A DNA stretch of 64,000 bases from Berberis thunbergii (Eukaryota > Streptophyta > Magnoliopsida > Ranunculales > Berberidaceae): NCBI GenBank assembly GCA_003290165.1, contig QNQO01000198.1, forward strand, positions 372,001-436,000, in the 5' to 3' direction. The notes beneath the pieces are model-generated. The model saw only the letters and a list, made by a program, of their open reading frames with translations. It made no database searches and was not told where the DNA came from. A program made the position numbers and the translations under genes. Numbering within the stretch: the first letter of the stretch is position 1; the number at the start of each line of letters is the position of its first letter. Below are positions 6,536 to 64,000 of this stretch, piece after piece.

Positions 6536-6565
6536 ATATGTTCTAAACCTTCATCCTTATTTAGC

Positions 6566-6755
6566 TTGTGTTTTGGTTGCTTTATTAAAAGTGTCTTTGT
6601 TTTTATATATTAGTTACACATATTTCATATGTTGTCTCTTTTTTGTTTGCTTATTAATGCATTACATATACTGAAATGATCAACTTTTTTTTTCTTAAAC
6701 AGGTGAACAACAATGGTTGTTGAAGCCAAGAAGAACGACATATCTCACAAAAGGA
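6566..6755 (+). repeat. CACTA segment duplicated at 46008-46216
   Basis: The intergenic stretch and first codons of the second CACTA gene recur almost unchanged at 46008-46216 in element B, including the runs around ATATATTAGTTACACATAT and the ATG with the codons for KKNDISHK. This ties element B to the same transposon family. Confidence 0.85.
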
Positions 6756-44275: not shown

Positions 44276-44383
44276 TGATATTATGTTTCATTAATTGGGC
44301 TTTAAGTCTTAAATCATTATAATTACGCAAAGCACATTTGTTAATGAAAATAATGATATCTCCAAAGGTAAGACATTCATAAC

Positions 44384-46007
44384 ACTACAAGAAAAATGCT
44401 TATTCATAGCATTTGTTAATAGCGCTTTTTACCATTCTGCTATGAAAAGTCAATTTAAATGACTTTGAAATTGAGAAACCCTGTGTAAAGTTGGCGTGCA
44501 TTTAGGCGCTCCCCAAAAATTTTCAATTAGCGCGACTTCTCTCTTCGTCTCCTCCAAATATTTCAACCTCAAAGCATAACCACGCCATGCTTGCCTCTCT
44601 CTCCCATGCGCTGATCTTTTTCTCCTTCTTGATCGCATCTCTCTCCCTCTCCCTCTCTCTCCATAAAAGAAAAACCCCTCTCTACCAAGCACCACAACCC
44701 CCTTTCTTCTTATCGCCTACCATGGTCGACCTCTCACCATCTAAAGCCCTCAAATCCTTCTCTCCCTAATCTACAACCTAAAGCAAGGGCTACGATGTGC
44801 CCAGCCTGTCACTCCTCCAACTTCAACACCCAAGGATTACATAGCTCGATTCATCCTCTCAAGCAAGATCTGAAGTCCAAGTGATGGTTGGTGAGACCAC
44901 TGATGTTGGAATTTTTGGTCCTGTTAAGGTATATACTCTTCTACATCTTCTTTTTCAGTAGATCTGGTTTTGTAAATCAAATTTTAATCCTAAAATTTAC
45001 AATTATTCCATCATTCTCTCATTTCTTTCATCTTATTTGAGTGTCCTTCTGGATAGACCTAGATGCTGGATAAGCTTAAATGTATCTCTGGATTTCAAGA
45101 AACAGGGAAACCTAAAATTGATATCAAGATTCAACACAAACGAGATGAAGTTTGGTTTGCTCTTAGGTTTCTGTTTCACTTACCATACTTCCTATCGGGT
45201 TTTAGGGAAAACCACCCTCTGACTATCTTGCGAAACCAACATATTATCTTTACTTGATTCAAGATTGTGAATTAAAATATATAACGTTCATTTTTAGTAT
45301 GTTTTTTTTGGAAGGCATTTTCAGTATATAACGTTGCCTTTTTCAGTGTATAACGTTGCCTTAGGCATTTTTTTTGGAAGGCATTTTCAGTATATAACAT
45401 TCATTTTCAGTATGTTGCCTTAGGCATTCAGGATATATCTTGGATTTTGGGAGCAGTCGACTTTTCTTAAGTTTGTTATCTCAGTCATTTGGGATTTGAG
45501 TTTCGAGGATTTTGGGTGCACTGGCCTTGATAAGAAAAGGCAATTGGTTTCTTATTTGTTTATTTATTTAGTTTCATAGCCTTGCTTGTTATGCTATCTA
45601 TGCCCTTGTTTGTTTATTATTTGGGTTCATATCCTTTTACCTCAAACTATTGTAGGACAATGAGGTCAATGCTTTAAGGAATGTTGATGATGCATCCAAT
45701 CGTATTTCCAAGAACCTGATGCCTAGGGCTTTAAGTGCCTTTTGGACGTCTTCATTGTTTGCCCAATAGTGGGAGAGATAATAACCATAGGCCTGTTGAG
45801 AATTCAAAAGATAAAACCTTTGTCACTGAAAGTTACATATTAAATCTCGCATAAACAATGTCATTTTCAATTGAATGTGCATACCCTAGTCTGAAAATCA
45901 GGAACTTCGGACATTGAAATTATAAGTTTGCTTGAATTTTCATGAAGTGCTCCTCTCCTTGGTAATTTGTTGTGGCTTGGGAACTAGCATTGGATTGATG
46001 GGTTCCA
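44384..46007. other. Element B left part: subterminal motifs, CT-rich tract, unknown exons
   Basis: After the subterminal motifs (to about 44460), a CT-rich tract (44540-44680) resembles that after the 13533 terminus. Weakly coding plus-strand stretches at 45063-45257 (GKPKIDIKIQHKRDEVWFAL) and 45655-45760 (DNEVNALRNVDDASNRISKN, preceded by an AG) are not recognised. A GGCATTTTCAGTATATAACGTT-type short repeat occurs about four times at 45265-45430. Confidence 0.4.
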
Positions 46008-46216
46008 AGCTTGTGTTTTGGCTGCTTTATCAAAAGTGTCTTTGTTTTTATATATTAGTTACACATATGTCATATGTTGTCTTTTTTTTTTTTTTTTCAT
46101 TATATGAATAAGGTTATTAATGCATTACATATACTGAAATGATCAACTTTTTTTTTCTTAAACATGTGAGCAACAATGGTTGCTAAAGCCAAGAAGAACG
46201 ACATATCTCACAAAAT
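46008..46216 (+). repeat. Copy of CACTA element 1 segment (6566-6755)
   Basis: Near-identical to 6566-6755, with a small insertion near 46080-46120. It contains the start codon (46176) and first 13 codons of the TNPA-like gene, then switches at about 46214 to PDR transporter sequence. Confidence 0.85.
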
Positions 46217-46355
46217 AAAAGTTGGAGGATATCCCAAGGTCCAAGAGACATTTGCAAGGATATCAAGTTACTGCGAGCAGACAAACATACATTCTCCACA
46301 AATTAGTGTAGAAGAATCACTAGTGTTCTCAGCTTGGCTGCGGTTGCCACGTTAG
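46176..46355 (+). CDS. In-frame fusion ORF: CACTA gene start joined to PDR ABC exon (59 codons)
   Basis: The ATG equivalent to that of the TNPA-like gene of CACTA element 1 (6713) begins [13 protein letters not shown]; at the breakpoint the frame passes without interruption into PDR-type ABC transporter sequence ([19 protein letters not shown], then [20 protein letters not shown]) and ends at TAG (46353-46355). The PDR exon itself continues to a canonical GT donor at 46377, but the TAG lies before it. The short length means ordinary ORF cut-offs miss it. Whether it is expressed is unknown; the fusion may be chance, since one in three junctions would be in frame. Confidence 0.5.
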
Positions 46356-46776
46356 ATTGATCGGAAAACAAAATCAGTAAGATGTCCTCTTGAATACATT
46401 ACTTTAATAACATTCCACTATGAAGAAAAGGAATAAAATTGATGCACAATCTTCCGTAATAGCTTAAAAAGGAGAACTATAATTAGGAATAACTATTTCT
46501 AAAAGTGTTAATAAAATTTCTAACAACAATAGTAATTTCATGCTGAAATTTGTTTGTGGTTTGTCTATTGAGCAGCATTAATACAATTCCAAATGTAAGT
46601 GGTCAGTCTACTGAGCAGCGTAAGAGGCTAACCATCGCAGCAGAGCTTGTCTCCAATCCGTCGATAATATTCATGGATGAATAAACCTGCTTGAGCGGCA
46701 GCTATTGTTATGTTGCAGTAAAGAATGTTGTTGGCACAGGAAGGACAACAATTTGCACTATCCATCAACCAAGTAT
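46217..46776 (+). pseudogene. PDR-type (full-size ABCG) transporter fragment, NBD2 exons, part 1
   Basis: Captured or relict part of a pleiotropic drug resistance ABC transporter, an ATP-driven plasma-membrane exporter. Exon 1 (to 46376, GT at 46377): [19 protein letters not shown]...[15 protein letters not shown], part of the second nucleotide-binding domain. Exon 2 (about 46574-46776): [19 protein letters not shown], the ABC signature region, then SIIFMDE (Walker B). A stop and small deletion directly follow the Walker B Glu; then GRTTICTIHQPS. The exon is interrupted at 46776 by element C and resumes at 59301. The Walker A exon, all other exons and membrane domains are absent. Confidence 0.85.
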
Positions 46777-46796
46777 CACTACACCAAAAACCCCCA

Positions 46797-47530
46797 TTAG
46801 CAACGGTTCTATACCGTGGGCGTAACCAATTGTCACGGCTAAGAGCCGTGGGCTACAGAGGCGTCGCGAAATTTGTTGTAACGGCTATAAACCGTTGCTA
46901 AACATGGTAGCAATGGTTTTATGCTTGAGTAGGGGTGGTGATTTTCAGCATTTAGCCACGGTTTTAAACCGTTGCAAGAACAATAGCAACGATTTTTAGC
47001 CGTGGCAACAATAGCCACGGTTCTAAGCCGTGTTAAAGTGTGGATATTAACAACGGTTTTAAATCGTGGTTAACAAGGTAGCAACGGTTTTAAACCGTGG
47101 TTAACAAGGTAGCAACGGTTTTAAGCCGTGGCTAACTCTGGCCACGGTTTGAAGCCGTGGCTAAACAGTGAGAAATAAACTGTAGCTAACAAGGTTGCAA
47201 CGGTTTTCAGCCGTGGCTAAACAGTGAGAAATAAACTGTAGCTAACAAGGTTGCAACGGTTTTCAACCGTGGCTAACCCTGGCCACGGTTTAAAGCCGTG
47301 GTTAAACAGTGAGAAATAAACTGTAGCTAACAAGGTAGCAACGGTTTTCAGCCGTGGCTAACCCTGGCCACGGTTTAAAGTCGTGGCTAAACAATGAGAA
47401 ATAAACTGTAGCTAACAAGGTAGCAACGGTTTTAAGCTGTGGCTAACCCTGGCCACGGTTTGAAACCGTGGCTAAACAGTGAGAAATAAACTATAGCTAA
47501 CAAGGTAGCAACGGTTTTTAGCCATTGGCA
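46797..47530. repeat. Left subterminal repeats of element C with 85-bp higher-order unit
   Basis: Dense copies of a short, mostly palindromic motif of the type CAACGGTTTTAAACCGTGGCTAA in both orientations. From about 47125 they are organised in a higher-order tandem unit containing AGTGAGAAATAAACTGTAGC: anchors at 47167, 47223, 47308, 47393 and 47478 give spacings of 56, 85, 85 and 85 bp. Subterminal repeats in this family of transposons are the binding sites of the TNPA-type protein; here the base motif is specific to element C. Confidence 0.9.
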
Positions 47531-47890
47531 GGTAAAAAAAATTAAAAAAAAAAGAAATCTGGTTTGTTGCAACGGTTTCAAAAAGAAATTATATTTTTTT
47601 TTGCTGCTGCAGCAAAATCACAGCCGTCGCACCAGCAAAATCAGTCCGTACTATGGTTTGTGTCATGCCTCCGGCACGAATAAGATTCCACAAACCATAT
47701 GCTAAATAAATACAAAATCAACCGTAAAAAGGAACTTGTCAAGTTTTGACGCCAAACAAAAACATGTAAACAAATAGCACTAATGTACAATAATAGGATT
47801 AACCTGAACAAATGGAACCTTGTTATATCATGTTTCCCTCGCATCTAAAACAAAAGAATTTCTCTATGTTTTCTCCAACAATACAAATCC
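47531..47890. other. Unassigned segment between subterminal repeats and captured exons
   Basis: AT-rich with A-runs; nothing recognisable on either strand. Confidence 0.4.
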
Positions 47891-47959
47891 ACCTACTTAT
47901 ATAATGTAAGAAAATACATTGATGCCCTTAGGAACATGCCCCATTTCTTTCGGTAGTTG

Positions 47960-48128
47960 CTTGTTCAATAAACTGAAAATGATGAGAATGCAGCACCTGG
48001 TAGTTGCTTGTATATGGCACCGGTGATGGTTGATACAACGACACACTTTGCACCCCAGAAACAAGCAATGTATGCGCATTCTCCTGTCCAACATACTGCT
48101 GCCCGTACTGGCTCAGACCTTCAGAGCC
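47960..48128 (-). pseudogene. Unidentified captured exon, Gln/Tyr/Ser-rich
   Basis: Minus-strand open stretch after a good acceptor (CTGCAG, exon from 48128): GSEGLSQYGQQYVGQENAHT, then SVSLYQPSPVPYTSN. It has strong coding character but does not continue the LOL frame: joined to the preceding LOL exon in phase it would read a stop within a few codons. It probably comes from another host gene. I do not recognise the family. Confidence 0.45.
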
Positions 48129-48456
48129 CTGCAGTATAAAAATTAGTCAGTACTCAATGACAGACAAACATGACCTATAAAGATTGCTAATAAACCAAAG
48201 CTGATGATGAAAATGATGAAAACACTGTGTGGCAACTTTTACGAAACAACTTTTATCTCCATGAATACATACACAAAGAACAACATCAAATGTCTAAGTT
48301 TCACACAAGTAGAAGAAACAAGAGATAACAACAAAAATGATCACATTAAATTTGACTCTTCCACAAAGATACTTGTCATTCACAAAAGTCTTTCAATTCA
48401 TTAATTAAAATGGAGAAAGGCATATAAGTAAAGTTTATTTATGATGATAGGTCTAC

Positions 48457-49180
48457 CTTCCATGGCCAAATTAACTGTGTGGCAACAAGAACATTGTACG
48501 CTTGTTGCTCCACGAATGTACATCAATAAAGTGTGGCATCCTCCACAAACCAGCTGAGCCATTTCAGTTCCTACTTGGTATCCAACAAACATAAAATCAA
48601 ATAGAAAATCAAGTGTAGAAACATATACGTTAACTCAATCGATCCATAAGGTACGTAGCATATGCAAGATATGTAGAAAAGAAAGTACCAGGAGGTGGAA
48701 CAGGTGTTACTGCATTGCAAACAGCACAACAGACTGAGGTGGCTCCAACAGGATAGAGAAGAAGGTTTCAGCAGCCAGAACAAATAAGTTGGCTCTGTGC
48801 ACCTGAGAAACGAGATACCAGTGACAGAAAAAATTGAACTAAGAATCTACCTGTCCGGCATTTAGAGTTCCAGGGAATTTAATTAACCAATGACATTAAA
48901 TTTGTTCAACATTTCTCAATGTTGTTAAACCAAAGAATCTCAATTATATCACATTGTATGAATCAAGATTTTGATTCAAACACAATCATTCCTCAATAAT
49001 AACCTATGCATGTGGCATAGAAAACATTTGATTCAACGAAATATAGGCATTGCTTTGGAGCTAGAAAACTTGAAAATTTTTAAAAAATAAAAATAGAGAG
49101 ACAATACCATTTGGTTGCGGTGGCAGGGGCAGGGTATATGGAGCTGGAGGAGTTGGATATGGAGCAAGAGGAACTGGCAT
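48457..49180 (-). pseudogene. LSD1/LOL-type zinc-finger gene fragment (three exons)
   Basis: Fragment of a plant LSD1-family gene (LSD ONE LIKE type), zinc-finger regulators of programmed cell death. Exon 1, 49180-49108: MPVPLAPYPTPPAPYTLPLP, the usual LOL start. Exon 2, 48802-48689: first zf-LSD1 finger, QLICSGC then a TGA in place of a codon, then [18 protein letters not shown]. Exon 3, 48570-48457: second finger, [20 protein letters not shown] then [10 protein letters not shown]. All splice sites are GT/AG and the phases join correctly. The third finger expected in this family is missing. The only lesion seen is the in-frame TGA in exon 2. Captured inside CACTA element C, minus strand. Confidence 0.85.
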
Positions 49181-50900
49181 TGCTTATCTACAAAGGTGTT
49201 TTTTGTTCCCCCCCCCCCCAAGCTCTTCAAAGGCTTGCAGCCTCAAGCAGAGGAAAAGAAAACCCTCTTTCCCATCTTCACTACTTCTACAAAAGCAAAA
49301 GTACAGATGAGATAAGCCAGAAAACAAAAAGGATCTTAGAAATCATTACAAATAAACAAATTGACCAATACCCATTAACAGAAGCGCGTAAAATATTTGA
49401 ACAGATATGAATCATTAACAGTTATTGTAACTTCAGAAGGCAACAATATTTTAGTGAAGCTTTACCAATTACCAAAGGCAACCAAGTTTAGTAAGAAATA
49501 TTATAAACAACTTATCAAAGCATTTCAAACACCTTTTATAATTAATCAGGCTCACTGTATTATCTTTATAAATTCTCATTCATATACATTAACTATATGA
49601 TAATGCCTTAATAATCAATCTTTTTTAAGTAGAATAACAAATTTCACAAATATATTTGTAACCACGCACAAAATTACATGGTTAGCATGAAACATTGCAA
49701 ATGGTGATATTTTCTAATATGCACTCAAACCTGCTCAACGCGCAGCCTCGCTCTTGCAGCGCCAACGGCACCGTGCAAACAACGACATGCACTAGCAGCT
49801 CCCTGCTCGACGCGTCTCCTCGCTCCTGCAGTGCCAAGGGCACCGTGTAAAATAGGGGAGAACCCATGCTGAAAGCTCCTATCGGCTTCTATGTGCTCAG
49901 TGCACATGCAGTCCAGCCAGCCTCGCAAATGGAAACTGACAGAAACCAGGCTGAGTGCACCTCGTTCCTGCGCGCATTGTGATCCTCGTAGCTGAACCGC
50001 CTACACCGCCCCTGCAGACCAAATAGAACACAAACAAACAACATCAAAGTTAGTAAAGTGCTATACGATGTATTTTGCAAAATCTCTACTAGCAGTCCAA
50101 GTAAAAACCTTTAAAACTGAAAATAATGTGATGTGAAAATGACAAAATAATGAGAGCAAAGTGTGGATTTGTTTAGGCAACAGGTTCTTACAATATCATG
50201 ATTAATCAATTCACAAAGTTATATGTGCTGGGATTTTATATCACTAATATTTTTGAATATTTAATGTAAAAAAAAAAAAAAAACTCCATCGTCAATGAAA
50301 CTTCAAAAGAAAGATTAAACAAAACAAGGTGCAATCTAAACTTTCACAAATTAAACTACTAAACATGGATGAAGCCTAACATATAACATCGCGACACACA
50401 ACATTGCTTCAATTACCTCAACTTAGAATCCAAAACTGGTCCTACTACTCTCTTCCAACAAAAGAAATTGCCATAGTCATTTTCTCTGTCACAAAGTTGT
50501 GTTGTAAATCTTATCAATGTGGTTGACATTGGCACTGTTAAAAGCTCACTAGCAGTTTTCTTCCAACAGACATTATTTTCATTATCCCTCATATTTTCAT
50601 TATCAATGCTATATAATTGGACTGCTATTTTATTTTAACTAATTTTGGAATGCATCACAGTTGTGTGTTGTGGAAATCTATGGAAAAAGTAATATGTTAT
50701 TTCTTCTAAGCTGGACTTCAAAGAGAAACTCAAAAGTGAGAGATGAGAGAAACTCAAAAGTGTCCTGGGAATGGTTCAGGATTTTGAGCTTTATCAAAGA
50801 GTAGTAAGGATTTTGAAGATAACGTTATTGCAATGAAACTCAGAAAATCACAGAAAATATTGTCGGACACAAAATTGATAATGAAGAGAGAATGTGGACT
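49181..50900. other. Unassigned interior of element C
   Basis: A poly-C run near 49210-49221 and an A run at 50270-50283. GC-rich repeats CCTCGCTC(C/T)TGCAG(C/T)GCCAA at 49748 and 49812 form a short duplicated block of about 64 bp. No gene recognised. Confidence 0.4.
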
Positions 50901-52400
50901 TTCCTGCAAAAATCATGTCATCACTCCACTCACTCAGTTATGCACATTCCCGTTCCAATATGAAGAGAGAATGTGGTGTTCAAAGACTAAAAACTAAGAC
51001 GTAAAATACTGCAAAAAAAAAGTAAACAATAGCAGATTTTGGGACTTACTGCAAGGGACGATCTGCTGATGATGCAAGGTACGCACTGCTGCTGCTGCTG
51101 CGAGGGATGAACTGCTGCTCTACGAGGGACCCACTGATGCGAGCTTGCTGCTTGTCGCAAACCAGAGTGCGCTCTGTTTCACTGCAGAGTACCCACTGTC
51201 CTGTAGAGTACCCACTGTCCTGGCAGTTATGATAACTTTTCTGGCACAGGTCTTGTTAGAACTCGTAGCCCAATCTTGACCTATGCAATTAAAAGTCACA
51301 CAAAGTAATTATGATAGGAGAAAGGCGAAACAAAACATTAGTCATTAAGAATGTCATCCCAGCTGAACACGAATCTATAAAAAGCCACATGCTGGACTGA
51401 TTTTTAGGCTAATCCTTATTGCCAAATATCCTCTTTAATTGAAATGAGGCATTCCTGCATCCATACAATTGCTTAAGAAGCCAACAAAGAGAAATTACTA
51501 ACTAAAGTTGTCCAGACATAACCCCTGAGCATCTATTGGAATTGCCTATTACATTTCAAACATTACTATGTTCAAAACAACCCTTGTGGTACCATGGGAG
51601 ATCACTACGAGAAAAATGTAACTGCTGTGTTCCAGTGGAAAATAATTTAATGACAAACATTCCTACGAATGGATTTTGGTGGTCTACAAATGAACTTCTG
51701 TCTATGTTTCTGTTTCTCAAGTTCTGAAACTTCTAATTGACAGTTTGGTTTTGGGATCTAACACAGGGTTTCCTTAAAAGAGACTCTTACTTTGGTACAA
51801 GAATCTTCTCGAGTGTAAATATTATCGCAATGAATGTAGATTTCTTATTTAGTATCTATAAATTGCACCCCAGTCCTGTTCTTATATAGCTGACACACTT
51901 ATAATCTGAAAAAAATTAATCATATTTGTAAGTTTTTCAATTGAATCCTTCACAGGTTCTGGTTAGAATGACAAAACCAGACATGACTGCAAAACACCAT
52001 TTCAAGTTTTTGATGAGGAAAAGTATAACATTTCCATTAGAAACTCATTGTCCATAACAGACACAAACCATACCATCAGCCTTGTAGTGCTGAAGTACCA
52101 TACCATGGCCAAGGCCGAGGCAACCAATGGGCTGAAGACACCCTATGTGCTTTATTGAAATGTCAACTTAAAATAAAGTGAAAACACATGAAGAGAAAAC
52201 ACCCCCTCTTGAGATGACCGTCAATCAGACATACCTTTTTGTTAAGTAGAAAAGTTCCTTTTACTGCCAGACCATTGTAAAACAAACGACTTTGGATAAG
52301 CAAAGGCTATAAGACACGGAGAAAAAAACCATCATCATGTTGTGATATGTGTAAAGGTTACAAAAAAGTAAAATAAAAAACGTAAGGCATCAGCTAATAG
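50901..52400. other. Unassigned interior of element C, GCTGCT-rich patch
   Basis: A CTGCTG-rich patch lies at 51055-51170 with repeated GAGGGA(T/C)..ACTG blocks, and an imperfect duplication GTAGAGTACCCACTGTCCTG occurs near 51185-51220. The rest is AT-rich without recognisable coding sequence. Confidence 0.4.
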
Positions 52401-52410
52401 GTGTCCCTAC

Positions 52411-52895
52411 CGATTCAAGCATGCGAGAGTCTGCATTTGTCAACCCAGATGATCTTCCCACATTTTCAATACGATCAAGCTTCCTCTAAAGACACCATTA
52501 AATCACAAGCATTGAATATCACACAAGTTTGGAAGGCACCAAACCATAACACATTATCAATTATCAAATATGAAAAACATCACAATGCAATTGTAGTGTG
52601 ACATGTACAAGTGGCATGAACCAAAAAGGAAATGTTTTAAGGCTGGGCATGAAGAGCTGTGTTGATCCATGGAAAGAGTTCTCTTTACTACTAACTTTCT
52701 GTCTAATTCATATATCCAATACGAGCCGTGAGCTTACAATATCACTATATATATATAACAAATAAAATAGGAAACATACAAAAATAGAAACTTTGGAACT
52801 AAAGATAAGAATGGATACCTCTTCCTTTTGGCCAGACAATGCCTTCGCCAAGGCGTTAACTTCAACAACCTTCTGTGCAGCAAATGCAAGCCATG
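52411..52895 (-). pseudogene. Unidentified two-exon captured gene fragment
   Basis: Two minus-strand blocks that splice in phase: exon 1 (about 52895-52819) reads [20 protein letters not shown] then QKEE up to GT at 52818; exon 2 (52485-52411, 25 codons) starts RKLDRIENVGRSSGLTNADS and ends at a GT donor. The heptad-like, charged sequence suggests a coiled coil. The phase agreement and conserved splice signals argue that this is a genuine host gene fragment. I cannot name the gene. It abuts the SEUSS fragment, in a different frame. Confidence 0.55.
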
Positions 52896-52899
52896 ATTT

Positions 52900-53209
52900 G
52901 ATAGGATTGCTTTACTGCAGATGCCGGTTGAATTCCCTGTTGCTGCACTTGCTGTCTCAGCTGTTGTTGTTGTTGCTGCTGCTGCTGCAATTGATGTTGC
53001 AACTGGGCCCGTTGCATTGGTGGCAAAGATTGCATGAAATGTTGCGGTTGTTGATGTCGTTGTAGGAGTCTCTGCTGTTGAATTAAGGCTTGCATTTGCG
53101 GATTGTGTCCCTGTAATTGACCACAGTCTGATCTATGGAGCAACTGTTGGATAACCTGATGCTGCAAAACATCTTCTTGCCTGATGTCTAGTCTAGGTTT
53201 CTTCTGCAT
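52900..53209 (-). pseudogene. SEU: SEUSS-type transcriptional adaptor fragment
   Basis: Fragment of a SEUSS-like gene, a plant LIM-domain-binding-type transcriptional co-regulator that pairs with LEUNIG. Minus strand: KKPRLDIRQEDVLQHQVIQQ, then a Gln-rich part with NPQMQALIQQQRLLQRHQQ, LPPMQRAQLQHQLQQQQQ and [12 protein letters not shown], the region immediately before the conserved LIM-binding domain. The sequence stops matching just after ASAVKQSY (near 52905) and the Ldb-type domain is absent. The CTG/TTG-rich polyglutamine tract is at 52950-53000. Carried inside CACTA element C. One exon only is visible. Confidence 0.8.
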
Positions 53210-54165
53210 CTATGTGTGTCATTTGCAGATTACACATGGGTTAGATGGCCACCACATGTAATTGAAGAGAACAAAAGAACAAAAAAAAACATTTCAAATA
53301 TCACTTTGCAAGTCAATATAGATACATAAAGAATTCACAATATAAACGGATGCTGATAAACAAAATAAACATGAATATATGAGACTTACGCGGTGCTTAA
53401 TACGTCTGGGTGTAGGTTATACTCCCTTGGCACTGTTGTTCTTTGAAGTTCCAGGGAGAACTTTCATACTGCTGCTTCAGTCGGCATTGCTACGTGTGTC
53501 ATCGTGACTAAGACTCCTCCTCCATTGTGTCCTTCTTGGATGCACATTATATGTAGCATGAGAGGGAGAGATAATGAAATTGAATCTCTGAAACTGAAAC
53601 ACCCACAAACTACATGAGAATATCAAATGATGGCATAGCATGGCATGGCATGGCCTGGCAGAGAGAATGTCTCTCCCCCTTCCCTGCATTCTGTAGATAG
53701 GTTCATGATTGTGTACTTAAAAGATGACCAAGTGTGAGTCCTTTTGTTTGAGTTGGGGTACAACAGCCATTGACAGCCATGCAGACAATTTAGATGAAGT
53801 CATTAAGGTACATTAATGAACATTTTGGATAGAATTGCACTAGACATTTTACGATTATGTACTATACATGTTTTTGATCAGTGGAAACATGAATTCACAT
53901 TCATTGAGATAATTGAAGAGAACAAAAGAACAAAATAGATATAATACTTGAACTAGGTTAGATGGCCACCACATGTAAGGAGAATACCTCAACCACAGCT
54001 CAAAACCAGTGTGCTAACTGCGCACGCTGAAACCCGCTGCGACCAGAAATAGCACGTACAACAATAAACATTAAAAGAAAGACATCATAATAAAAAGTAA
54101 ACATAAATAAACATTAAAAAGTAAATATAGTCAGAAAATTCACCATTAGACTCTTGGTTTTTGTA
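53210..54165. other. Unassigned interior of element C
   Basis: A GGCATGGCATGGC-type short repeat at 53632-53660; the phrase GAGAACAAAAGAACAAAA with flanking TAGATGGCCACCACATGTAA occurs at both 53240-53290 and 53910-53980, an imperfect local duplication. No gene recognised. Confidence 0.4.
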
Positions 54166-54167
54166 AC

Positions 54168-55782
54168 TATCAATCATCAAGTTCCACATGAGTTCTACAC
54201 CATATGAAGAAATCACCAACATCCAAATCCCCCATCTTGTCTCCTTTTGGATCACTTTTGTAAAGTTTCACTCCAGTCTTGTATTTGAAGCATAAGGAAA
54301 GTCTGATCTCTGTTGCAGGGTTCAATGATCCATGACGAGCGCAAGAGAATTGATGGATAGCATCTACAACCTCTAATGCTATCGCAATGACATTCCTTTC
54401 CCAATCACAAACTTTGTATCTCCTTGACACTGAAGGAACAGGATTGCTTGGAGAAGGAAACCTCGCAACACCTTGAGAAGATGATGGTAATGGAGATGGT
54501 CGTAATGGAGATGGAGGTAATGGATTATCCGGTTGCCTTGTCGATTGTGCACCGGATGACGGTGTATCTTCAGTTCTTTGAACAACTCTTTGTATTCCCT
54601 CACTTGTTGATGGTCTTACATAAGTTCCACTTTCAAGTCTCTCTCGTATCCATCTAACATTTTCTTCCAATCTATCATATTTTTCACTACATTTTTTACT
54701 TCCAATGTTTTTTCCAAAAACAATGAACGAGCGGGAAGTGCAGCATCATACTTCCTTTTAGAGACAGTGGTTCCAACACAACGAGTACGTCCCCTCGCTT
54801 CTTGGCCAAACACTTGGCTTAGAGGATCATCATCAATAGTGAGGTCAATGTTACCCTGAGTTGAAGATTCTTGCAATGCAGCTTTTTTTGCTTTAACTTG
54901 TTCCTTCAAAAGAATGAAAAAATAAAATAAATCAGGACACAAATAATATTCAAACAACTACAAAGTAAATTAAGAATTGGATATAAAAGACATCATTGGG
55001 CACATACCATATATTGTTCAGAACCATGCGTAGGTTTTCCATCCTTTCCCGTGTGACAAGCAATCCATATGTCAGTGCGTGTGACTGGTTCCCCATCAGG
55101 GTTCTTCTCAACCTATATACTTGAAAGATTAGTCTCAGCCTATAAAATTAAATGGTATATAATATTGTACTAGTAGCTACAAACTCAATTACCATTTCAT
55201 ACTCTACTTCTGCAGCACTCTTTTGGCCACCCCCCCATACATACTTTGAAGCCTTTTTGTTTTTTGCATTTTGGTCTCTAATTGCCTTCGCTTCAGGGGT
55301 GCTCTCATAGCGAACAAACTCCTTCCAATCCTCCTCTCTTACACCATTTGGAACATGCTTCTCTTGTTCCTCAATGGAAGGATACTTATCCAAATAATTC
55401 TTCCTAAGATGTGCCTTGAACCTTTTATAATATTCAGGCATTTTCAAATGCACACTCTTTTTCACATAATTTGGGATGTCGTATTCACGCTGCAAATAAG
55501 CCATTGAGATATAAGTTGAAAATAAAATAAGACATTATGAAAATCAATGATGTAAAATCTCACCTTGAGGTCATTCCACACATCCTCTTTGTAGTTGTCA
55601 GTAACATGGTGCCAACCCTTGAATTTGATGGGCACAAGGGTTTCAACAAGCTTTCCAATATTTTTATTGAAATTTCTAGCACCAGGTCCAACTGCTAAAC
55701 CGTGGAGGTTGAACTGTATGGTCTGTTTAACTTCAATGGTGGAGAGATTGCCGTGAGTCCTATCCATCTCTATCAATGACAT
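54168..55782 (-). pseudogene. TNPA-like / Transposase_24 gene of element C
   Basis: Minus-strand gene of the plant Transposase_24 (Ptta/En-Spm) type, the accessory DNA-binding protein of CACTA elements. Exon 1 (to about 55563, GT at 55562): NLHGLAVGPGARNF and GWHHVTDNYKEDVWNDLK. Exon 2, 55489-55193: YDIPNYVKKSVHLKM, KHVPNGVREEDWKEFVRYES and KYVWGGGQKSAAEVEYEM. Exon 3, 55112-55008: VEKNPDGEPVTRTDIWIACH and KPTHGSEQYM. The last part (about 54910-54168) has ALQESSTQGNIDLTIDDDPL and ends VGDFFIWCRTHVELDD. Splice sites are good, but a frame change lies near 54690. The gene is the only transposon-encoded one I see in element C. Confidence 0.75.
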
Positions 55783-55799
55783 TATAGATATTAACCATT

Positions 55800-56560
55800 A
55801 TCAAACAAAAAGAAATAAGAATCAACTGTATACACCACATTTATAGATAATTTCCTTCCACAACATATCACCACAAATAGATTTTTATAAAGCATTTGAA
55901 AATCTAATCTGAATACATCGCTACAAAGCTTCCCTTTCCCAACTCAAAAGTCTAAATAAGAAACAAAGACAAATATTTGGTCTCAACCAAAGAGGATGAC
56001 TAAAATAGCATTAGAAATGCATCAAAAAATATTGTAGCATAGTCAATTAAAATTCCAGTAAGCTCTTCAGGTTGGGGTTGTCTTTCAAGATGCTTTGATA
56101 CACAGTGGGAATTTCTTTTTTATCGACAAAATAAAAATATATAAGGACAAACTAACAAAGTACAAAACTACAACTGATCTTAGATAATGGATTGGAGCAG
56201 AGAAGTTCCCTACTAAAGGTAAACAATGCATGGTAAGCAATGGCAATCTGTTGAGCATGGAGATCAATGTTTTCTTTTCTATAAATGATTTGATGAATAA
56301 GTAAGAGTTGATATGAGGATCAGAAGAGCTAGTACAATATAATCAACTTTGTCAGTTAAGTAGCTTTAGATCATACTTAATATCATTATTTTATAATATC
56401 ATCTCCTAACTCAGTTAACTAAGTTAAGCAACCTAGCTACCAATCTTGAAGAAGAAAATAATAACAATAATAATAATTGATGATCACACACATCTCCTGA
56501 TGAGTACAAACCTAGCTAATTACATTCTGTTATGAACTGACCTTTTTGTGATGAAGTTTC
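55800..56560. other. Unassigned interior of element C
   Basis: AT-rich, contains an ATA-type trinucleotide run near 56455-56480. No gene recognised. Confidence 0.4.
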
Positions 56561-56639
56561 TGCAGAATTGGAGAATCAAGCAGTGCACTCTCAGTACCAA
56601 GGTCAGAGTGGATGAATTTCTGGATGTTTTGTAACCTGG

Positions 56640-57100
56640 AAAGACACATTCAAGTCAAGAACAACCAAAGAAAGTCGAACAAATCAATGAAGACTGATTC
56701 TGCAAACTTGATTATTTGTATTGAATGCTTCTGTAAAAATTACAATGGAATGATTGAAATGTAAAGGCAGTATTCGAGATTGCCACTCTCCTCAATGAGC
56801 AAAGATCAATTGTACTCAGTTATTACAGAAATGAATGAATGCTATTTCCCTTGCTAGTCTATTATTTATAGCAACAGAACTAACACTAACATTGACTAAC
56901 AGTAAGTATAACAAAGCACTCTGAGTTAACAGAGCACCTAACAGAACTGCTTTACAGACTGCTAACAGCATATAAACTTGCCCAACAATAGTGAAAACGT
57001 TATTGCTTCCGCTATCAATTTGCATCAACTCCCAATCAAAACAATGTTTGCATTAGGAGATCTGTGCACATGAGCAACATTATATTTATTACTGAAATGG
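56640..57100 (-). repeat. Possible solo LTR (Ty1/copia-like) in element C
   Basis: On the minus strand the stretch has an LTR-like profile: a TATAAATAATAG box (near 56870), a downstream CAATTGATC...TTGTACTC region and no coding sequence. It is similar in character to the segment at 63101-63541. The ends could not be fixed. Confidence 0.3.
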
Positions 57101-58440
57101 GATCCTTAACTGTGGATTAATCATATCATACTCCTTAATTTCCACCCTCCCCACTGGGAAGCATTTTTCAGATTTTCCAGCATTTAAAAACAAATTAGTA
57201 AAGTTGACAAGTGCAAAAATACACCTCCATTCACAAATAGTCTGAACATGATGAGCATTAATCCACCATTCATATCCTTTAATTAAACATGCTGCGAAGA
57301 AAAATAAATAACCCCAAACACATGGATATTGCGACGTGGGAGACCAAATTTCTCTCTACAACCCAAATTTCTTTGCACTAAAACCAAATGAATGGTACGT
57401 CAAAGAAGAAGCCCAAACCCTACTAATAATTCTTGTTGTTTCGTTCATAGCGCATATTGGTGTTTAGTACTTTACAATACATGTTTGGCATTCAAGTGAA
57501 GAGCACCCCTCTAATATTCATTCAAACATGCAACATGTCTTGGTGACTTGTGAATTGGGCATTTGTGGCTGCAAAACAGAGTCCCAAACTTGCGGTTGCT
57601 ACCACCAAATGGTACAATCCGTAGTGACTTGTCCCTTGGAAAACAAGGGGTACTCTCAAAAATTTGTTAGGGCATCAGGTAGGGATGTTCAATTTTACTA
57701 CAACTACTCAATATAAAACTGTTCATCCAAAGATAATCAACAAAGATTGACTTTTTTACTATGCAATTATTTTCTCTAGTCAAACAAAAATTGGAAAAAG
57801 AGTAAATTATTTTCTTTCCTGATTATAGGATCAACCCACTGGCATTCTCCTAATTGGATTTGGTGAAGACATCAGGGCATCTGGAGTATTTGAGGCGAAA
57901 GGGTTAAGGAAAAAAAAGTGTATACACTATTAGTGTAAAATCTCATGACCAGTTGTTCGAGACTACTTTTAGAATTGACTGGTGTAAGTGAATAGCTCAA
58001 ATCCGACCTGTTGCCAGCCCTATAACATGTTGTCAACCCTACTACAAAAGTTGGTGCACTTTATTGATCTATATCAAGGGATCCATCGACTTCAAACTTT
58101 AACAAAAATGTAGACCCTAAGTGGTCATCTTCATCGGTACATCTACTATTCATCAATCTACTTATTGATACATCGATCATGTGATACAAAAGTGAATTTC
58201 TACATAATGTACAAAACTTCGCACATGTATTGGTTGAGATTTCTATCCAACTAATTTATACAAACAAAAGACATTGTATAAAATCACTATCTATTATGCC
58301 AAATATACTCGAAAACTTACAAAAACTGCGAAAAATCTATTGAACACCATGGAGACATACATAACTGCTTGTGTGAAGTCTACAAAAACTGCGAAAAATC
58401 TATTGAAAACCCTAATTTCATCCTAAATAAAAGAGAACCC
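57101..58440. other. Unassigned interior of element C
   Basis: No convincing gene. A 62-codon plus-strand open frame at 57528-57716 is Cys-rich at its start but has no recognised motif. The phrase ACAAAAACTGCGAAAAATCTATTGAA is duplicated at 58318 and 58382 (about 64 bp apart), and ACCCTAATTTCATC is duplicated at 58410 and 58447. Confidence 0.4.
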
Positions 58441-58509
58441 TGATGAACCCTAATTTCATCATAAATAAAAGAGAGAGAGAGATAGTACCTGTTCGGTTGC
58501 AGTGGCTGA

Positions 58510-58770
58510 TCGATTTTGAAGTTGAGGGAAGTCGATTGAAGTCCAGGGATGAGCAGGGAAGTCGAGGGAAGAGCAGGGAAGTCGAGGGCGCAGGGAAGGA
58601 GGGGAGGAGGGAAGTCGAGGGAGGGAGCAGGGAAGGAGAAGGAGCAGGGGGAAGTCGAGTCGAGGGAGGGAGCATGTCGATGAAAGTCGAATGGAGGGAA
58701 GCAGGTCGAGGGAGGGAGCTTCGATTTTGTGAAATTGTCGATGGAAGTCGAATGGAGGGAAGGTCGAGCG
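58510..58770. repeat. Purine-rich GTCGAGGGA tandem repeats
   Basis: A low-complexity block built from GTCGAGGGA(A/G)G and GAGCAGGGAA(G) units, strongly purine-biased on the plus strand. It lies just inside the right subterminal repeats of element C. Long open frames on both strands here (58418-58823) come from the repeat, not from a gene. Confidence 0.8.
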
Positions 58771-58799
58771 CCAAAAATAGCACGCCCAATTTTTTTAGC

Positions 58800-59285
58800 T
58801 TTTCATGTAGCCACGGTTTTTAGCCATTGCTAGAGCTAGCCACGGTTTAAAACCGTTGCTAAATTTTTTTTTGCAACGGTTTTGGGCCGTTGTTAGATCT
58901 AGCCACGGTTTAGAACCGTTGCTAAAAAATTTTGTTGCAACGGTTTTGAGCCGTTGCTAGATCTAGCCACGGTTTAAAACCGTTGCTAAATTTGTTTGTT
59001 GTAACGGTTTTGAGCTGTTTCTAGATTTAGCCACGGTTCAGAACCGTTGCTAAATTTTTTGTTGCAACAATTTTAAGCCGTTGCGAATAATTCCCATGGT
59101 GTGGAGCCGTTGCTACTATTAGCCACGGTTTGTAGCCGTGCCAACTATACCAACGGTTTTAAACCGTGGCCAGGTTGTTTATTACCCACGATTTTAAGCC
59201 GTAGGTAATTATAGCCACGGTTTTTTGGCCGTGGCAAATACACCAACGGTTTTAAACCGTGGGCAGCTTGGCGTAGCTAAATGGC
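58800..59285. repeat. Right subterminal repeats of element C
   Basis: About 18 copies of the AGCCACGGTTTNAAACCGTTGC-type motif in alternating orientation; the spacers often contain CTAGATCTAG or CTAAATTTTTTTG. Same core as the left end, but without the 85-bp higher-order organisation. Confidence 0.9.
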
Positions 59286-59300
59286 CCTTTTGGTGTAGTG

Positions 59301-59328
59301 TATCGACATATTTGAGGCATTTGATGAG
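59301..59328 (+). pseudogene. PDR-type ABC transporter fragment, part 2 (after element C)
   Basis: Continues the exon interrupted at 46776: after the TAT duplication it reads IDIFEAFDE and ends at a canonical donor (GT at 59329). The H-loop region HQPS is on the left side of the insertion and IDIFEAFDE on the right, so element C landed directly after the switch-His motif. No later PDR exon was found. Confidence 0.85.
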
Positions 59329-59329
59329 G

Positions 59330-59656
59330 TAATTGCAACACTAACCAGTGAATTATATTCATGGCAACACTTTTCGAATGTTATGATACATATCAAGTGT
59401 TATTACATCTTCAGATGGATGGCATGAGATCCATTAGCTTGGGGTTGAAAAGCTGGAGAGTAGGAATATTTGACAATACCACCTTTGAGTAATGACATGG
59501 TATGTTTTTCTCTCCATTGGAACAATAGGAGAGTTATGCTCATTATTTGTTCGGGTACTAATATATAAACACCGATGGCAACTAGGTAAACTCTTGTTTT
59601 ATCTTATTCTTGTTCTAATTTAACTATCTAATTTGCCACAACGTTGTTTCTTGTAG
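59330..59656. other. Unassigned, between PDR and HCF101 fragments
   Basis: Probably PDR intron sequence followed by the capture junction. No conserved peptide was found. Confidence 0.4.
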
Positions 59657-59913
59657 CCGACACTTCTACAACATCACTCACATCTTAAACAGATGTACTG
59701 GCAGCCTTGTCCCAGATCATTGATCTGATTTCGGAACATACATTGTTTCATACGGGTTTGTGAAAGATATGAATATTGATGATGCCTTGGGAGAGGTAAG
59801 TAATGACAATCATGAATTTTTTTCCCTCAGTTATATTGAAAAGATTACATACTTTGCCTCAGGTCTCATTCCGGTTGGAACTCACTACACCAGCATGTCC
59901 AGTCAAAGACATG
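59657..59913 (+). pseudogene. HCF101: HCF101-type (Mrp/NBP35 family) gene fragment, DUF59 exons
   Basis: Fragment of a gene for HCF101, the chloroplast P-loop ATPase that acts as a scaffold for 4Fe-4S cluster delivery to photosystem I. Exon 1 (59657-59795, acceptor TTGTAG, donor GT at 59796): TDVLAALSQIID, then after a one-base change DFGTYIVSYGFVKDMNIDDA and LGE. Exon 2 (59863-59913): VSFRLELTTPACPVKDM, followed by GT at 59914. Together these are the start of the N-terminal MIP18/DUF59 domain. A stop (TAA in the first exon) and the frame change make it a pseudogene. The P-loop domain is absent. Plus strand, like the PDR and RING-CH fragments. Confidence 0.85.
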
Positions 59914-61230
59914 GTAAATGAAAACCTGATCCCCTGTTTGATAAGCAAGAGCTGTGTTTTCCTTACAAGTCTTGCTAGGTTGTTGTTGGGAACTTAAATG
60001 GTTCAAGGTTGTATCAGTAAGTTTGTGTTGCCTTTTTAAGCTTGTCAACTCAACTCCTTTTGTGATATTTTGGGTCATTGAAGGATTGTTGTAGCTTAAT
60101 CTTAATGGAAATTTTGTTATTTTTCCTCTTTTTGGGAACTCAGATGGTCAAAATTCATTTTCTTTGTTTGATGTCTAGGCTTTTAATTTCAGGGATGTAA
60201 GTGGTAGTAGCCTAGTAGGTGTCTTAAAGTGGGTTTCTTTTTAATCAATATAAACTCAATTTTGTGTGTAATTTATAGATTAATGCAGGAGATGCATGAC
60301 AATGGTTCATATTTTTATTGAGTTTCTTTGGAAATCACTTGTTTATACCTAGATACTGTCGGTAAGCATTACTAGACGAAGGAGATTGATATCTGTAATA
60401 CTTAATGCTTGGATTCTAGAAGTTCTATGTCATGTTATTTGTTGTCTCTTTTCTGGTTTTGGTCTTTGTCTTCTTCATTTTGAATCTGGGTAGTTAGTGC
60501 ATGTTTTTGAAGTCTTTTTTGTATCCATATGAAGTGTCTTCTTTATGAAAATCACCTGGATGGTTTTCTAAACTTCTGGTAGTTCTATTGTCTGAACAAG
60601 TTTTTTTATTTTGATTTTCTTAGTGCAGAGCTTTCATGATTTTCTTTGTATGATTTGATAGTATTATAACTTGGATGGAATCTAACATCTTACAAATTGT
60701 CATATGGTGTTTGATTTACATTTGACGCTGACTCAAAAATGATGTAAATCTTCAACCTTCAACCTCAAAATTGGAAATAAAATATGTTATCTTTCGAACT
60801 TAACTATGAGTAATTTTTCTTGTTGGAGTCTCCGACACAACCAATTTATGAAGTTACCTGCAGTGAAATTGACAATCAACTATTATTGGTTTCTCAGTTT
60901 TGACAAATCACATTAATTAGCATTCAGATCCAAAGCAGCACCGTTATCATTTATATTATACTCTTGGATGAGCTAAAGCTATGTGAATTTTCATGTAGGG
61001 TCCATCTGTTTTGATAGGAAATATTTGCCTCATGAACAGGGTTTCCTTGTCTCAATCGGTTGAAGGAATGGAATCTAATGAACTGCTGTGGACAAGCAGC
61101 TTGAGGTTGCCAGCTTGAACCAGAGCGCAAATCAATAAAAGTTATATGCTGGAGCTAGTGGCTATGAAGGTTCATCCTTTACCATTTGGATCATGTAAGT
61201 GGTAAATTTCATTTGTTGGTTTTATACTGT
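59914..61230. other. Unassigned, probably captured intron sequence
   Basis: T-rich plus strand, with the base composition of a plant intron. No conserved exon was found, although 60990-61190 is slightly more GC-rich. It may be HCF101 intron and further captured sequence. Confidence 0.4.
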
Positions 61231-61394
61231 TAGATTCTAGATGAAAGAAAAATTCCAGCCATCCGATACATGTCATAGTTTTATATTATATAGAATAGTC
61301 AGGCCTGTGCAGGTACAATGTTGTTTTGGATTGTTGTATACTAGCAAAGATTCCACACAACACAACCCCTTTGATGCATGCTTTTACTCTTTAT

Positions 61395-61461
61395 GTACCT
61401 CTATAAGTACAATTTCCTTTGTAAGTGTCAATACACAAGAAGCCCAACCATTTCAACAAGG
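61395..61461 (+). promoter_or_regulatory. Possible TATA region before the 61462 ORF
   Basis: CTCTATAAGTAC at about 61400-61411 lies some 50-60 bp upstream of the ATG at 61462, a spacing usual for a plant TATA box with a short leader. Inference from spacing only. Confidence 0.3.
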
Positions 61462-61572
61462 ATGAAAACATCAAAAGTCCTCTGTCTTATCTTCCTTCAT
61501 TATCTCTTCATCTCTCTGCTATCAACACAAGCAGCTCCCACAAATTCAAATGTTAGAACTTTCAGATGTTAG
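61462..61572 (+). CDS. 36-codon ORF with signal peptide, possible captured first exon
   Basis: MKTSKVLCLIFLHYLFISLL followed by STQAAPTNSNVRTFRC and TAG. It shows a Lys-containing n-region, a 15-residue hydrophobic core and an Ala-X-Ala-like cleavage site (TQA/AP), a textbook secretory signal. The mature part is only about 12 residues, so this is likely the first exon of a small secreted protein, cut off where RING-CH sequence begins (61584). The phrase ATGTTAGAACTTT is duplicated at the junction (61549-61577). The family was not recognised. Confidence 0.45.
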   Translation: MKTSKVLCLIFLHYLFISLLSTQAAPTNSNVRTFRC

Positions 61573-61583
61573 AACTTTTTAAG

Positions 61584-62615
61584 TTCAGCCATACCAGCTT
61601 GGTTATACTGATCTACCTCCACCTCAAGAGACCATCATTGATATCAGGCAGGTTTTTTTTGTGCATATTATTTGTCCACTTTTATTCCTACCTAATGGGC
61701 TGTTTTAACATTCTTCTTTTTCAATTTTAAAGTTTAATTTTCACTTGATGTTGATTGTCTTTGACGTCTTGAAATTTTTGTCGGGGGACTAACTTATCAG
61801 TAACTCTGACGTTCTTGTAGTGAAGGTTGGACTATCTCCGGTACTCCTCTGACTTTGCACGATCCCAGGCTCTTGGCAATGGCAGCAGCTGAGCGCCATT
61901 TTCTCAATGCTGAATATGATGAGTATGCAGCTACAAATGCCAGTGGAGCAACATTTTGTCGTTCTGCTGCCTTAATTGTAAGCCTCTAGTTTCAGCTAGT
62001 AGTCTTTATGTTAATCAAGAGACTTACAAAACTATCATATGGTGCTTTGATTTATAGTTTTGTCCGCATAAAAGAAATCTTTAACCAAAACATATATAAC
62101 CCTGCAATACTTTTGCAGAATTGTGGTTTAGTGCAACATGTAGCCTCTCATATATCATTGTGCATGTTTTTTCTCTCATTAACATAGATACTATCATTAG
62201 GATCCTGACTTTGCCAGGCATCAAGTCCTCTTTTTCCTACATTTTATGTGCACTGATGTTCTGTTATAGTATTTAATTTGTTTTGTTTCTTGATCGGACA
62301 TATTTAGTTATAGGTTAATTGTTCCTTCTGGTGCAGTTAATGGCACTTCTGCTGTTAAGGCATGCACTGAGCATTACTAATGTTGATGGTGGCGATGATG
62401 ACACATCTGTTTTTTTCTCTGTAAGTGCAAATGGAACAATCACTTATTGAATTTGCTTAAGTTGTCAGAAGTTTCTATTTTGATCTAAGGTTGTAGCACA
62501 TCACTGACAGTTTGATGTTTAATAGCTTTTTTTGTTACGTGTTGCCGGATTTCTTTTACCATGATACATCATGGCATGGGCAATAAGTATTTTGCAACGC
62601 TGAAGACAGAGGCAG
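61584..62615 (+). pseudogene. RING-CH (RINGv) E3 ligase fragment, C-terminal exons with DUF3675
   Basis: Fragment of a plant membrane-associated RING-CH-type E3 ubiquitin ligase. Exon 61584-61651: GYTDLPPPQETIIDIR. Exon 61821-61977: EGWTISGTPLTLHDPRLLAM then FLNAEYDEYAATNASGATFC, the DUF3675 region. Exon 62337-62420: LMALLLLRHALSITNVDGGD, a membrane helix. Exon 62526-62615: LFLLRVAGFLLP, a TGA, YIMAWAISILQR, a second TGA, RQRQ, the second helix. All splice sites are GT/AG. The N-terminal C4HC3 RING-CH finger is absent, so no ligase activity is possible. Two TGA codons, both CGA/TGT-to-TGA-like changes, are the main lesions. Confidence 0.85.
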
Positions 62616-63100
62616 GTTAGTCTTTGTAATGTTATTAGTTTAATTTTCCTTTATGGCCACCCTGCTTGTCCAATCCAATCTGATGCTTAAGACAGCCCTG
62701 TGCCAATTTTTGTGTAGTAGGGCATAGTAGGTGCTATTCTAAGAGTTGCTTTTTGTATTGTAGCCATAGTTATTAAATATCAGTGTACGGTCGTATACTT
62801 ATCGGTATTTACTGTACCGATTGCTAACTGGTACATGTTGGACCAAAAAATTGTTTTTGCATGTATTAGGGTGTACCGACCGGTTTACTGGGTGTACCGA
62901 CCAGTATATCCCATGAACCGTGTACCGGTCGGGACCCAATTTTTAAAAAATTCAAATAAATTATTATAAATTTTTTTATAAGATTATTCTAGTAGTATAA
63001 CAACTGGGCATTTGGTTAGTAGTATTATTCTAAGATTGTTTTGGTTTAACAAATTGTAACTGATGTTAAGGACTTTCATGGAGTGATTAACATAATGTGA
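62616..63100. other. Repeat-like sequence with CGGT/ACCG palindromes
   Basis: At 62760-62945 the motif GTACCGACCGGT and its partial copies (GTGTACCGACC, ACCGGTCGG) recur, resembling a short interspersed or miniature element; an AT-rich tail follows. No gene. Confidence 0.4.
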
Positions 63101-63541
63101 ATGTTCCAGTTGTTGCTGATATAGAATGTGAATGTTTCAGTTGTGAATGCTCCAGTTGTTACTGAGGTAATATGCTGCAGATGGTGGAGAATGCAAGTGC
63201 TTAAGTGTTGCAGAGTGCTCTGTCAGATGGTGGATGAGAAGGGTTCTTCAGTATTCTGTTAGTGGTTAGAAGAATGTTTGTTAGAAGAGTAATCCTCTGT
63301 TAGAAGAATAATGCTATGTTAGTTGCTCTGACCTCTGTGAGGTATGAGTATAAATAGGAGAATGGCAATAACATTGGGATTCATGATTGCACACATTGTA
63401 CAATTGAGCAAATGCTTGTTAGGATATTAAGGCATCTCGAACAGCCTACATCATTCAGTTCATATTACATTGTAATTCACTCTTTGAGTTGTATCTTGTA
63501 ATTCCAATTTCAGCATTGTCAATACAATTTCTGTTCCAACA
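63101..63541 (+). repeat. Probable solo LTR (Ty1/copia-like)
   Basis: Begins TGTTCCAGTTG and ends TGTTCCAACA. It contains GAGTATAAATAGGAG (TATA box, near 63350) followed by GCACACATTGTACAATTGAG and TTGTAATTC blocks, typical of a plant LTR promoter and polyadenylation region. No internal retrotransposon domain follows. Ends are approximate. Confidence 0.45.
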
Positions 63542-63607
63542 ATTGATTGTTGAAATCTTCTAGTCTTCCAAATAAGATGTAATGAAAAGTCATTTGATAG
63601 AAAAAAA

Positions 63608-63826
63608 AATGCTATGTATACTCTACCATAGCGTTTTTGTTTCAGAAACGCTATGAAAGGCTCTCTATCATAGCGTTTTTAAACCGCTATAAAAATCTCT
63701 ACCATAGCGTTTTAAAAACGTTATAAAAGCCAAACTTACCATAGCGTTTTAAAACCGCTATAATAGCCCCTGGGTCTATTATAGCGCCGGCTGTCATAGT
63801 GTTTACTAAAACGCTATGGTATCTGA
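63608..63826. repeat. Inverted CATAGCGTTTT/AAAACGCTATG repeats
   Basis: About ten copies of CATAGCGTTTTNAAA and its reverse, arranged as palindromes of about 25-30 bp separated by CTCTACC/CTATTAT spacers. The core ATAGC matches the subterminal motifs after the CACTA ends at 13533 and 44383, so this could be the right subterminal region of element B. Confidence 0.75.
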
Positions 63827-63830
63827 TTAC

Positions 63831-64000
63831 GCCCACACAGTACACGCGGTCAATTACAGTAAAGAATGGGGTGTCGATCCCACGAGGAAAAATGATCTAC
63901 AAAATAAGGTTAAGGAAGACAAACTATGTGAAACTAAAGTTAATAAATTCTAACAAATTTAAAATACGAAATTGAATTTAATTTAATGAAAATTAAGTTT
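63831..64000. other. Unassigned right edge
   Basis: Contains GGGTGTCGATCCCACGAGG, a phrase of retrotransposon-like type, and AT-rich sequence. No gene in the visible part. Confidence 0.3.

Follow-up and report, generated by a model that had tools for sequence, protein, structure and literature searches.

Host Gene Fragments in One Direction in the Examined Stretches of Two CACTA Transposon Families from Berberis thunbergii

A 64,000-nt stretch of the Berberis thunbergii genome (GenBank assembly GCA_003290165.1, contig QNQO01000198.1, positions 372,001 to 436,000; C198:372001-436000, hereafter the window) includes two nested CACTA DNA transposons, designated elements B and C. Both carry intron-containing fragments of several unrelated host genes. 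Family searches covering the 2.24-Gb assembly place B and C in two multi-copy CACTA families, whose elements move as units and vary in their interiors. Where members were examined, all captured genes of a family point the same way, and in the C family the TNPA/TNPD-type genes run this way too.

Nested CACTA Elements in the Window

The left part of element B occupies 44383..46776 on the plus strand. It starts with the terminal inverted repeat (TIR) CACTACAAGAAAAATG at 44383, preceded by the target site duplication (TSD) TAA at 44380-44382, and these confirm the start given in the initial annotation. The right part inside the window is 59301..63823 on the plus strand, with right subterminal repeats at 63600..63823 (plus). 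The end once proposed at 63830 was discarded because position 63824 is the start of a solo long terminal repeat (LTR) that is inserted within the right end of B. This LTR (63824-65648, of which 63824..64000 lies in the window) is 1,825 nt long, starts with TG, ends with CA, and has the TSD GTATC. The true right TIR of B ends with CATTTTTCTTGTAGTG at 65702, outside the window and 1,702 nt past its end (L029 sequence), and the three letters after it, TAA, match those in front of 44383. Another candidate end, TTCTTGTAGTG at 61822, was rejected because its flank AAG does not match TAA.

The host site of B is a tandem array of ~4.94-kb units, seen at ~20000-44382 in the window and from position 1703 in L029. 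By eye the units are pararetrovirus-like, with CCHC and reverse transcriptase-like frames on the minus strand. A 949-nt probe from the array found three more copies at 98.4-98.6%. In four adjoining array units without B, the match to the left flank and the match to the right flank share 3 nt, which makes these units natural empty sites.

Element C occupies 46777..59300 (minus strand) within the exon of a PDR-type ABC transporter fragment carried by B. Its two ends are inverted and of the CACTACACCAAAA type, its subterminal repeats are strong, and it is bordered by the TSD TAT at 46774-46776 and 59301-59303; the identical TSD is present in contig C6659. Its right end is taken as the 5' end, following the transposase direction. 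A copy of B without C (L030) has an uninterrupted PDR exon and provides the empty site. The TIRs, the TSD and this empty site bear out the initial annotation of C as nested in B. C is an intact CACTA insertion and entered B after B had gained the PDR fragment. The array came first, B entered it next, and C and the solo LTR later inserted into B.

Contig C6659 (flanks 99%) and contig C6662 hold further assembled copies of the B/C nest, and these are probably haplotigs. Near-identical contig pairs are present in the assembly, which suggests that it partly holds both haplotypes. Between C6659 and the window, the Kimura two-parameter distance is 0.011 for element C and 0.002 for the adjoining B sequence.

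Captured Gene Fragments and Transposase Remnants

The cargo of B proposed on the plus strand was recovered there, two fragments with profile or PDB matches and one by eye. The PDR fragment, with a GT..AG intron, lies at 46182..46776 and resumes at 59301. It matched a pleiotropic ABC pump in a PDB phmmer search (1.2e-5) and the ABC_tran profile (0.025). A Pfam scan of the full plus-strand frames of 44383-53984 returned 0 families and thus missed it. A longer PDR relic in contig C39 aligns at 85-93%, intron included, and was rejected as the intact parent because its frame is broken. There (L039, C39:65600-68599), a frame that by eye resembles a mechanosensitive channel comes after the PDR relic and runs the same way; this locus is perhaps another fused element.

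The second fragment of B, at 59541..61562 (plus), was recognized by eye (VSFRLELTTPACPVKDM at 59863) as HCF101-like; a 25-aa piece of it had no match in Pfam or PDB searches. The same stretch occurs at C1034 and C9648, and C1034 was rejected as the parent since it is not an intact gene. The third fragment, RING-CH (DUF3675), lies at 61583..62447 (plus; PF12428, 1e-14 and 5.9e-5). The DUF3675 match covers profile positions 20-73 and then 71-100, continuing across a GT..AG gap at 61978-62336, and this gap is therefore a retained intron. Because introns are retained, capture took place at the DNA level, as initially proposed. The stretch 45799-46489 is a module common to B and another repeat family: of 40 scored places, 27 have it, complete or partly, in the absence of other B sequence (94-97% similarity).

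In C, the proposed minus-strand cargo stands for one gene by profile and for another by eye. An LSD1/LOL-like fragment (47620..50100, minus) includes two zf-LSD1 matches (PF06943) at 48473-48547 and 48708-48782, with e-values of 6.7e-12 and 7.4e-9. An exon at 52862..53209 (minus), without a Pfam match, was accepted by eye as SEUSS-like. The SEUSS-like stretch is repeated elsewhere, and the copy in C3389 has more of the gene by eye. That copy (L024/L025) has a C-family left end, and its SEUSS region is split by a LINE. Other copies have ~0.5 kb extra between the halves of the SEUSS region (window 52739-52766), where the window copy has probably suffered a deletion.

Two further fragments of C were initially listed without identity. 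One of them (54170..55797, minus) is a Transposase_24 (TNPA-type) remnant (PF03004, 5.2e-5 and 1e-5, below the curated cut-off). It was rejected as captured cargo; it is C's own CACTA gene. The reading frames of C in the window are short, with the Transposase_24 match scattered over pieces, and a protein search with the transposase open reading frame (ORF) gave one match, an unnamed metagenome protein. The other fragment lies at ~56.5-57.4 kb on the minus strand.

Families of Elements B and C

The left 600 bp of B gave 950 first-look candidates, and all 40 that were scored matched at 90-100%. For the left 601 bp of C, first-look candidates numbered 6,720, and 40 of these were scored. Complete members have TSDs of their own: TAT in C5931/C105 and C5476, ATT in C1, C230 and L035, GGT in C454, and AGG in L030. 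Copies of the B family have the first ~870 bp in common and are variable in the remainder. Among C-family copies, all eight that were compared have the LOL module close to their left end (only part of it in C230; C6659, the second assembled copy of the window site, is included), and the remaining interior is variable. The C-family member C454 encodes Transposase_21 (5.6e-33), Transpos_assoc and DUF4218, that is, TNPD-type sequence, and also has a Transposase_24 stretch.

CACTA TIRs are thus found at both ends of B and of C, along with 3-bp TSDs (TAA for B, TAT for C) and subterminal repeats, and genes of the TNPD/TNPA type are found in the C family. Host gene fragments lie inside the elements, as in Pack-CACTA. 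The strict Pack-TYPE pipeline admits no transposase match; with its Transposase_24 remnant, C falls outside that definition and is Pack-like.

Because B and C belong to multi-copy families, the gene fragments are cargo, not local relics. The search for other copies sharing the cargo, recommended in the initial annotation, found the fragments with the elements at other sites with different flanks and TSDs. In the assembly searched, an intact parent gene was obtained for none of the fragments.

Element B itself is probably composite. Forty places were scored for the region 59301-63600. Seven of them span both halves of the region (C198, C6662, C6354 and C155; with gaps or cut, C6659, C397 and C7713). 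Four stop at 61585 (C83, C232 and C6880, which have B-type left ends, and C6111), 25 begin at 61580-61583, and the remaining four have the HCF101 stretch only (C1034, C9648, C2356 and C2366). The 25 right-half places are presumably elements with CACTA ends. Because the left and right halves occur apart, B probably arose when two elements fused, with the junction at ~61583 (61583..61585, no strand assigned). Such separate halves are expected from the joint mobilisation of two neighbouring elements. The multi-gene capture that the initial annotation found striking is, for B, partly explained if two elements were joined there.

Direction of the Captured Fragments

The uniform orientation noted at first within each element is weak evidence in the window alone: three B fragments and two or three C fragments pointing the same way are non-significant (a chance of 1 in 4 to 1 in 2 each). 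Parts of other family members were therefore scanned on both strands. These were L022 (600-9999 minus, 3300-9999 plus), L020 (2082-6632), L027 (6794-10000), L028 (201-2455), L013 (1500-9999, PDB only), L033 (1040-5900), L035 (970-5900), L037 (2568-6000) and L038 (2850-5800). The window scan leaves out the minus strand of 44383-46776 and 56001-58800, and took the plus strand of 59304-63600 as ORF pieces only.

In the stretches scanned, all 16 captured fragments lie on one strand per family (seven in the B family and nine in the C family), and the opposite strand gave 0 host domains in both families. It is from these additional members that the orientation bias gains its weight. The B-family cargo, all on the element plus strand, comprises PDR, HCF101 (by eye) and DUF3675 in the window, IMS (IMS/REV1-like) and WD40 (3.6e-5) in L035, PWI in L033, and G6PD_N in L038. 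The C-family cargo, all on the element minus strand, comprises LSD1 and SEUSS (by eye) in the window and RdRP in C5476 (9.3e-25) and C1 (2.3e-21). C5476 further carries PPR (1.4e-3), Meth_synt_2 (6.5e-3) and GBBH-like_N (9.6e-3), which are below the Pfam cut-offs and whose peptides read clearly, and C230 carries ABCB (4.3e-62), a sulfate transporter (3.1e-20) and a WD40 protein (9.4e-20). Without the fragments identified by eye and the three of C5476 that fall below the cut-offs, 11 of 11 fragments are one-directional; this set keeps PDR, which has a PDB match, and the WD40 of L035, which is below the model cut-off. The C-family transposases are co-oriented with the cargo, both Transposase_24 in the window and Transposase_21, Transpos_assoc and DUF4218 in C454.

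Rows for LINE, gypsy and transposase sequences were excluded from the count, and a LINE (DUF4283) in L033 and a gypsy element in L037 were rejected as cargo. PI_PP_C in C60 (E 0.022), also on the element minus strand, was dropped, as were Zn_ribbon_RPB9, which overlaps LSD1, YozE_SAM_like and DUF4646.

A homology-free comparison of base composition agrees with this direction. The sense strand of plant introns is rich in T. T outnumbers A on the predicted sense strand in 40 of 44 500-nt windows of the B family and in 114 of 130 of the C family (154/174 together), versus 62 of 119 control windows on the same strand (39/74 in the flanks of five C copies and 23/45 in three stretches for B).

Leaders and a Possible Mechanism

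Both families have a CT-rich 5' leader with a donor-like site. In the B family the leader is 44383..45250 (plus), and its site AAG/GTATATAC, with GT at 44929-44930, is kept in all five aligned copies. In the C family it is 58489..58800 (minus) with AACAG/GTAC and GT at 58488-58487; AG/GT is kept in four of five aligned copies (as AG/GTAC) and GT in all five. The end of C opposite the leader is the LOL fragment, a constant 3' module of the C family. The 3' module of the B family is less sure, as L035 has no more than a few hundred bases close to its right end in common with L030.

These features suggest that the members of each family are built as a single transcription unit. In the proposed mechanism, a conserved leader with a splice donor would form the 5' end, captured exons the middle of the element, and a captured gene end the 3' end: LOL in C, and perhaps the RING-CH part in B. 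Capture would occur at the DNA level, probably through aberrant repair or excision between neighbouring elements as in the Pack-CACTA model. Elements with sense cargo could persist since they would be spliced into harmless gene-like RNA. Antisense cargo would give RNA complementary to host mRNA, leading to small-RNA silencing and loss of the element. Fusion of co-oriented elements might then generate long one-direction arrays. The sense-only bias could arise either from capture biased by the direction of insertion or from removal of antisense cargo. As a whole, this explanation of one-direction multi-copy families, a single transcription unit, a sense filter and fusion is considered moderately probable.

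A further-reaching version is that two families with different ends converged on an exon-trap design. It would consist of a promoter-like leader with a donor, sense host exons only, with their introns, acquired time and again and shuffled by fusion, and a captured gene end that brings its own 3' terminus. Antisense cargo would be purged, and each family would act as a strand-selective assembler of chimeric genes. We regard this version as tentative, and on balance doubtful.

Alternative Explanations

Several points weigh against the favoured explanation. If direction is free per family and captures are independent, the naive chance is 0.5^14, ~6e-5, for the 16 fragments and 0.5^9, ~0.002, for the 11, values that are too strong if captures were not independent, and some of the 16 may have been captured together. 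The fragments come from few elements (B and C of the window, C5476, C1, C230, L033, L035 and L038), and HCF101 of the B family and GBBH-like_N of the C family may derive from one host gene family. The domain scan misses short exons, as it did for PDR, and covered the copies in part. The plus strand of C3389 carries the LINE and an ORF that by eye resembles the N-terminus of a CACTA transposase; the right end of this copy was not found, and it was kept out of the direction count. The T/A windows are from related copies sharing modules and are not independent, T>A skew also extends outside the elements (17 of 20 windows in the C1 flank), and it is weaker in L033 (6/9) and C454 (21/29). In the part of the B plus strand that was scanned, no B-family transposase was found, and the polarity of B rests on the leader. 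Transcription, splicing and silencing enter this explanation as predictions from sequence. Outside Berberis, the grapevine element Cactavine-5 carries, according to the excerpt of the report available, a PPR fragment opposite to its transposase (PMC2528002), and there is therefore no general sense rule for CACTA elements.

Ordinary Pack-CACTA transduplication without any directional rule was considered, with one-way cargo resulting from chance and the shared descent of few lineages. The window has only ~6 fragments and modules are common to copies, and gene capture by CACTA elements, also from several loci per element, is common as far as the excerpts of the source papers extend (PMC8903248; PMC4290129). 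This explanation is unlikely in view of the 16 one-way fragments, the absence of antisense host domains in the both-strand scans, and the excess of T>A windows over controls. A mechanistic bias would account for these data differently: capture itself could be strand-selective, for example through sense insertion into genes or introns followed by gap repair that draws in adjacent gene sequence. The retained introns, which indicate DNA-level capture, agree with it, as does the tendency of Pack-TYPE local insertion pairs to keep their orientation (12/15 for hAT and 12/13 for PIF in the available part of PMC8903248). The two insertions seen in the window, however, went into a repeat array (B) and into another transposon (C), and we consider such a bias a minority possibility, rather unlikely as the main cause.

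It is also conceivable that these are near-autonomous CACTA elements whose cargo now serves the element, such as a LOL-derived protein under selection. The near-constant LOL module of the C family and the TNPD-type and Transposase_24 sequences of C454 are in line with this, whereas the short frames and the broken-up Transposase_24 match in the window make it quite improbable. Finally, fragments with introns and gene-like direction could be local relict host genes lying by chance between two CACTA-like ends. The initial annotation had raised relict genes as the objection to cargo; within this genome the objection fails, as these ends enclose the same cargo at further loci with different TSDs, and B as well as C has natural empty sites. 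The relict-gene explanation was rejected on these empty sites and retains a negligible probability.

Comparison with Known CACTA Systems

Both families appear large and have different genes behind a constant leader, and consequently strand ratio, chimeric transcripts and small-RNA targeting are measurable in one genome. If antisense cargo is truly absent, this would point to silencing or splicing as the filter through which transposons come to produce gene-like units. Why cargo survives, and whether a strand rule acts in capture or in survival, are questions that CACTA capture raises. Among the titles and abstract beginnings listed in searches of the open-licence literature, none states a strand rule for CACTA cargo.

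As far as the available portions of the cited reports go, a closely similar system is Tgm-Express1, a soybean CACTA element in wp that holds exon and intron parts of five unrelated host genes; these pieces are spliced as exons into chimeric RNAs shown by cDNAs (PMC1947982). Its pieces appear to be sense to the host transcript. Like B and C, it combines pieces of several unrelated host genes in a CACTA element. It is a single 5.7-kb element, while B and C represent two multi-copy families with nesting, transposase remnants and one-direction cargo in several different members. The Tpn1 family of Ipomoea nil, as excerpted, includes hundreds of non-autonomous CACTA elements with conserved termini, interiors replaced by genic captures, and chimeric transcripts (PMC5105172). 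B and C differ from it in the constant leader with a donor-like site, and C in the constant captured 3' module.

In Pack-CACTA and other Pack-TYPE elements, the sections available describe cargo from several loci per element and acquisition through joint mobilisation of neighbouring elements (PMC8903248, PMC13317346). This mode fits the two-part structure of B. The Pack-TYPE pipeline excludes elements matching transposases, unlike C with its Transposase_24 remnant. On wheat chromosome 3B, 140 CACTA-mediated capture events involving 145 genes are given in the accessible text (PMC4290129), so that most events captured one gene, in contrast to the multi-gene B and C. Gene capture by CACTA elements is already known from Tgm-Express1, Tpn1 and Pack-CACTA, and what B and C add is sense-only cargo in two families.

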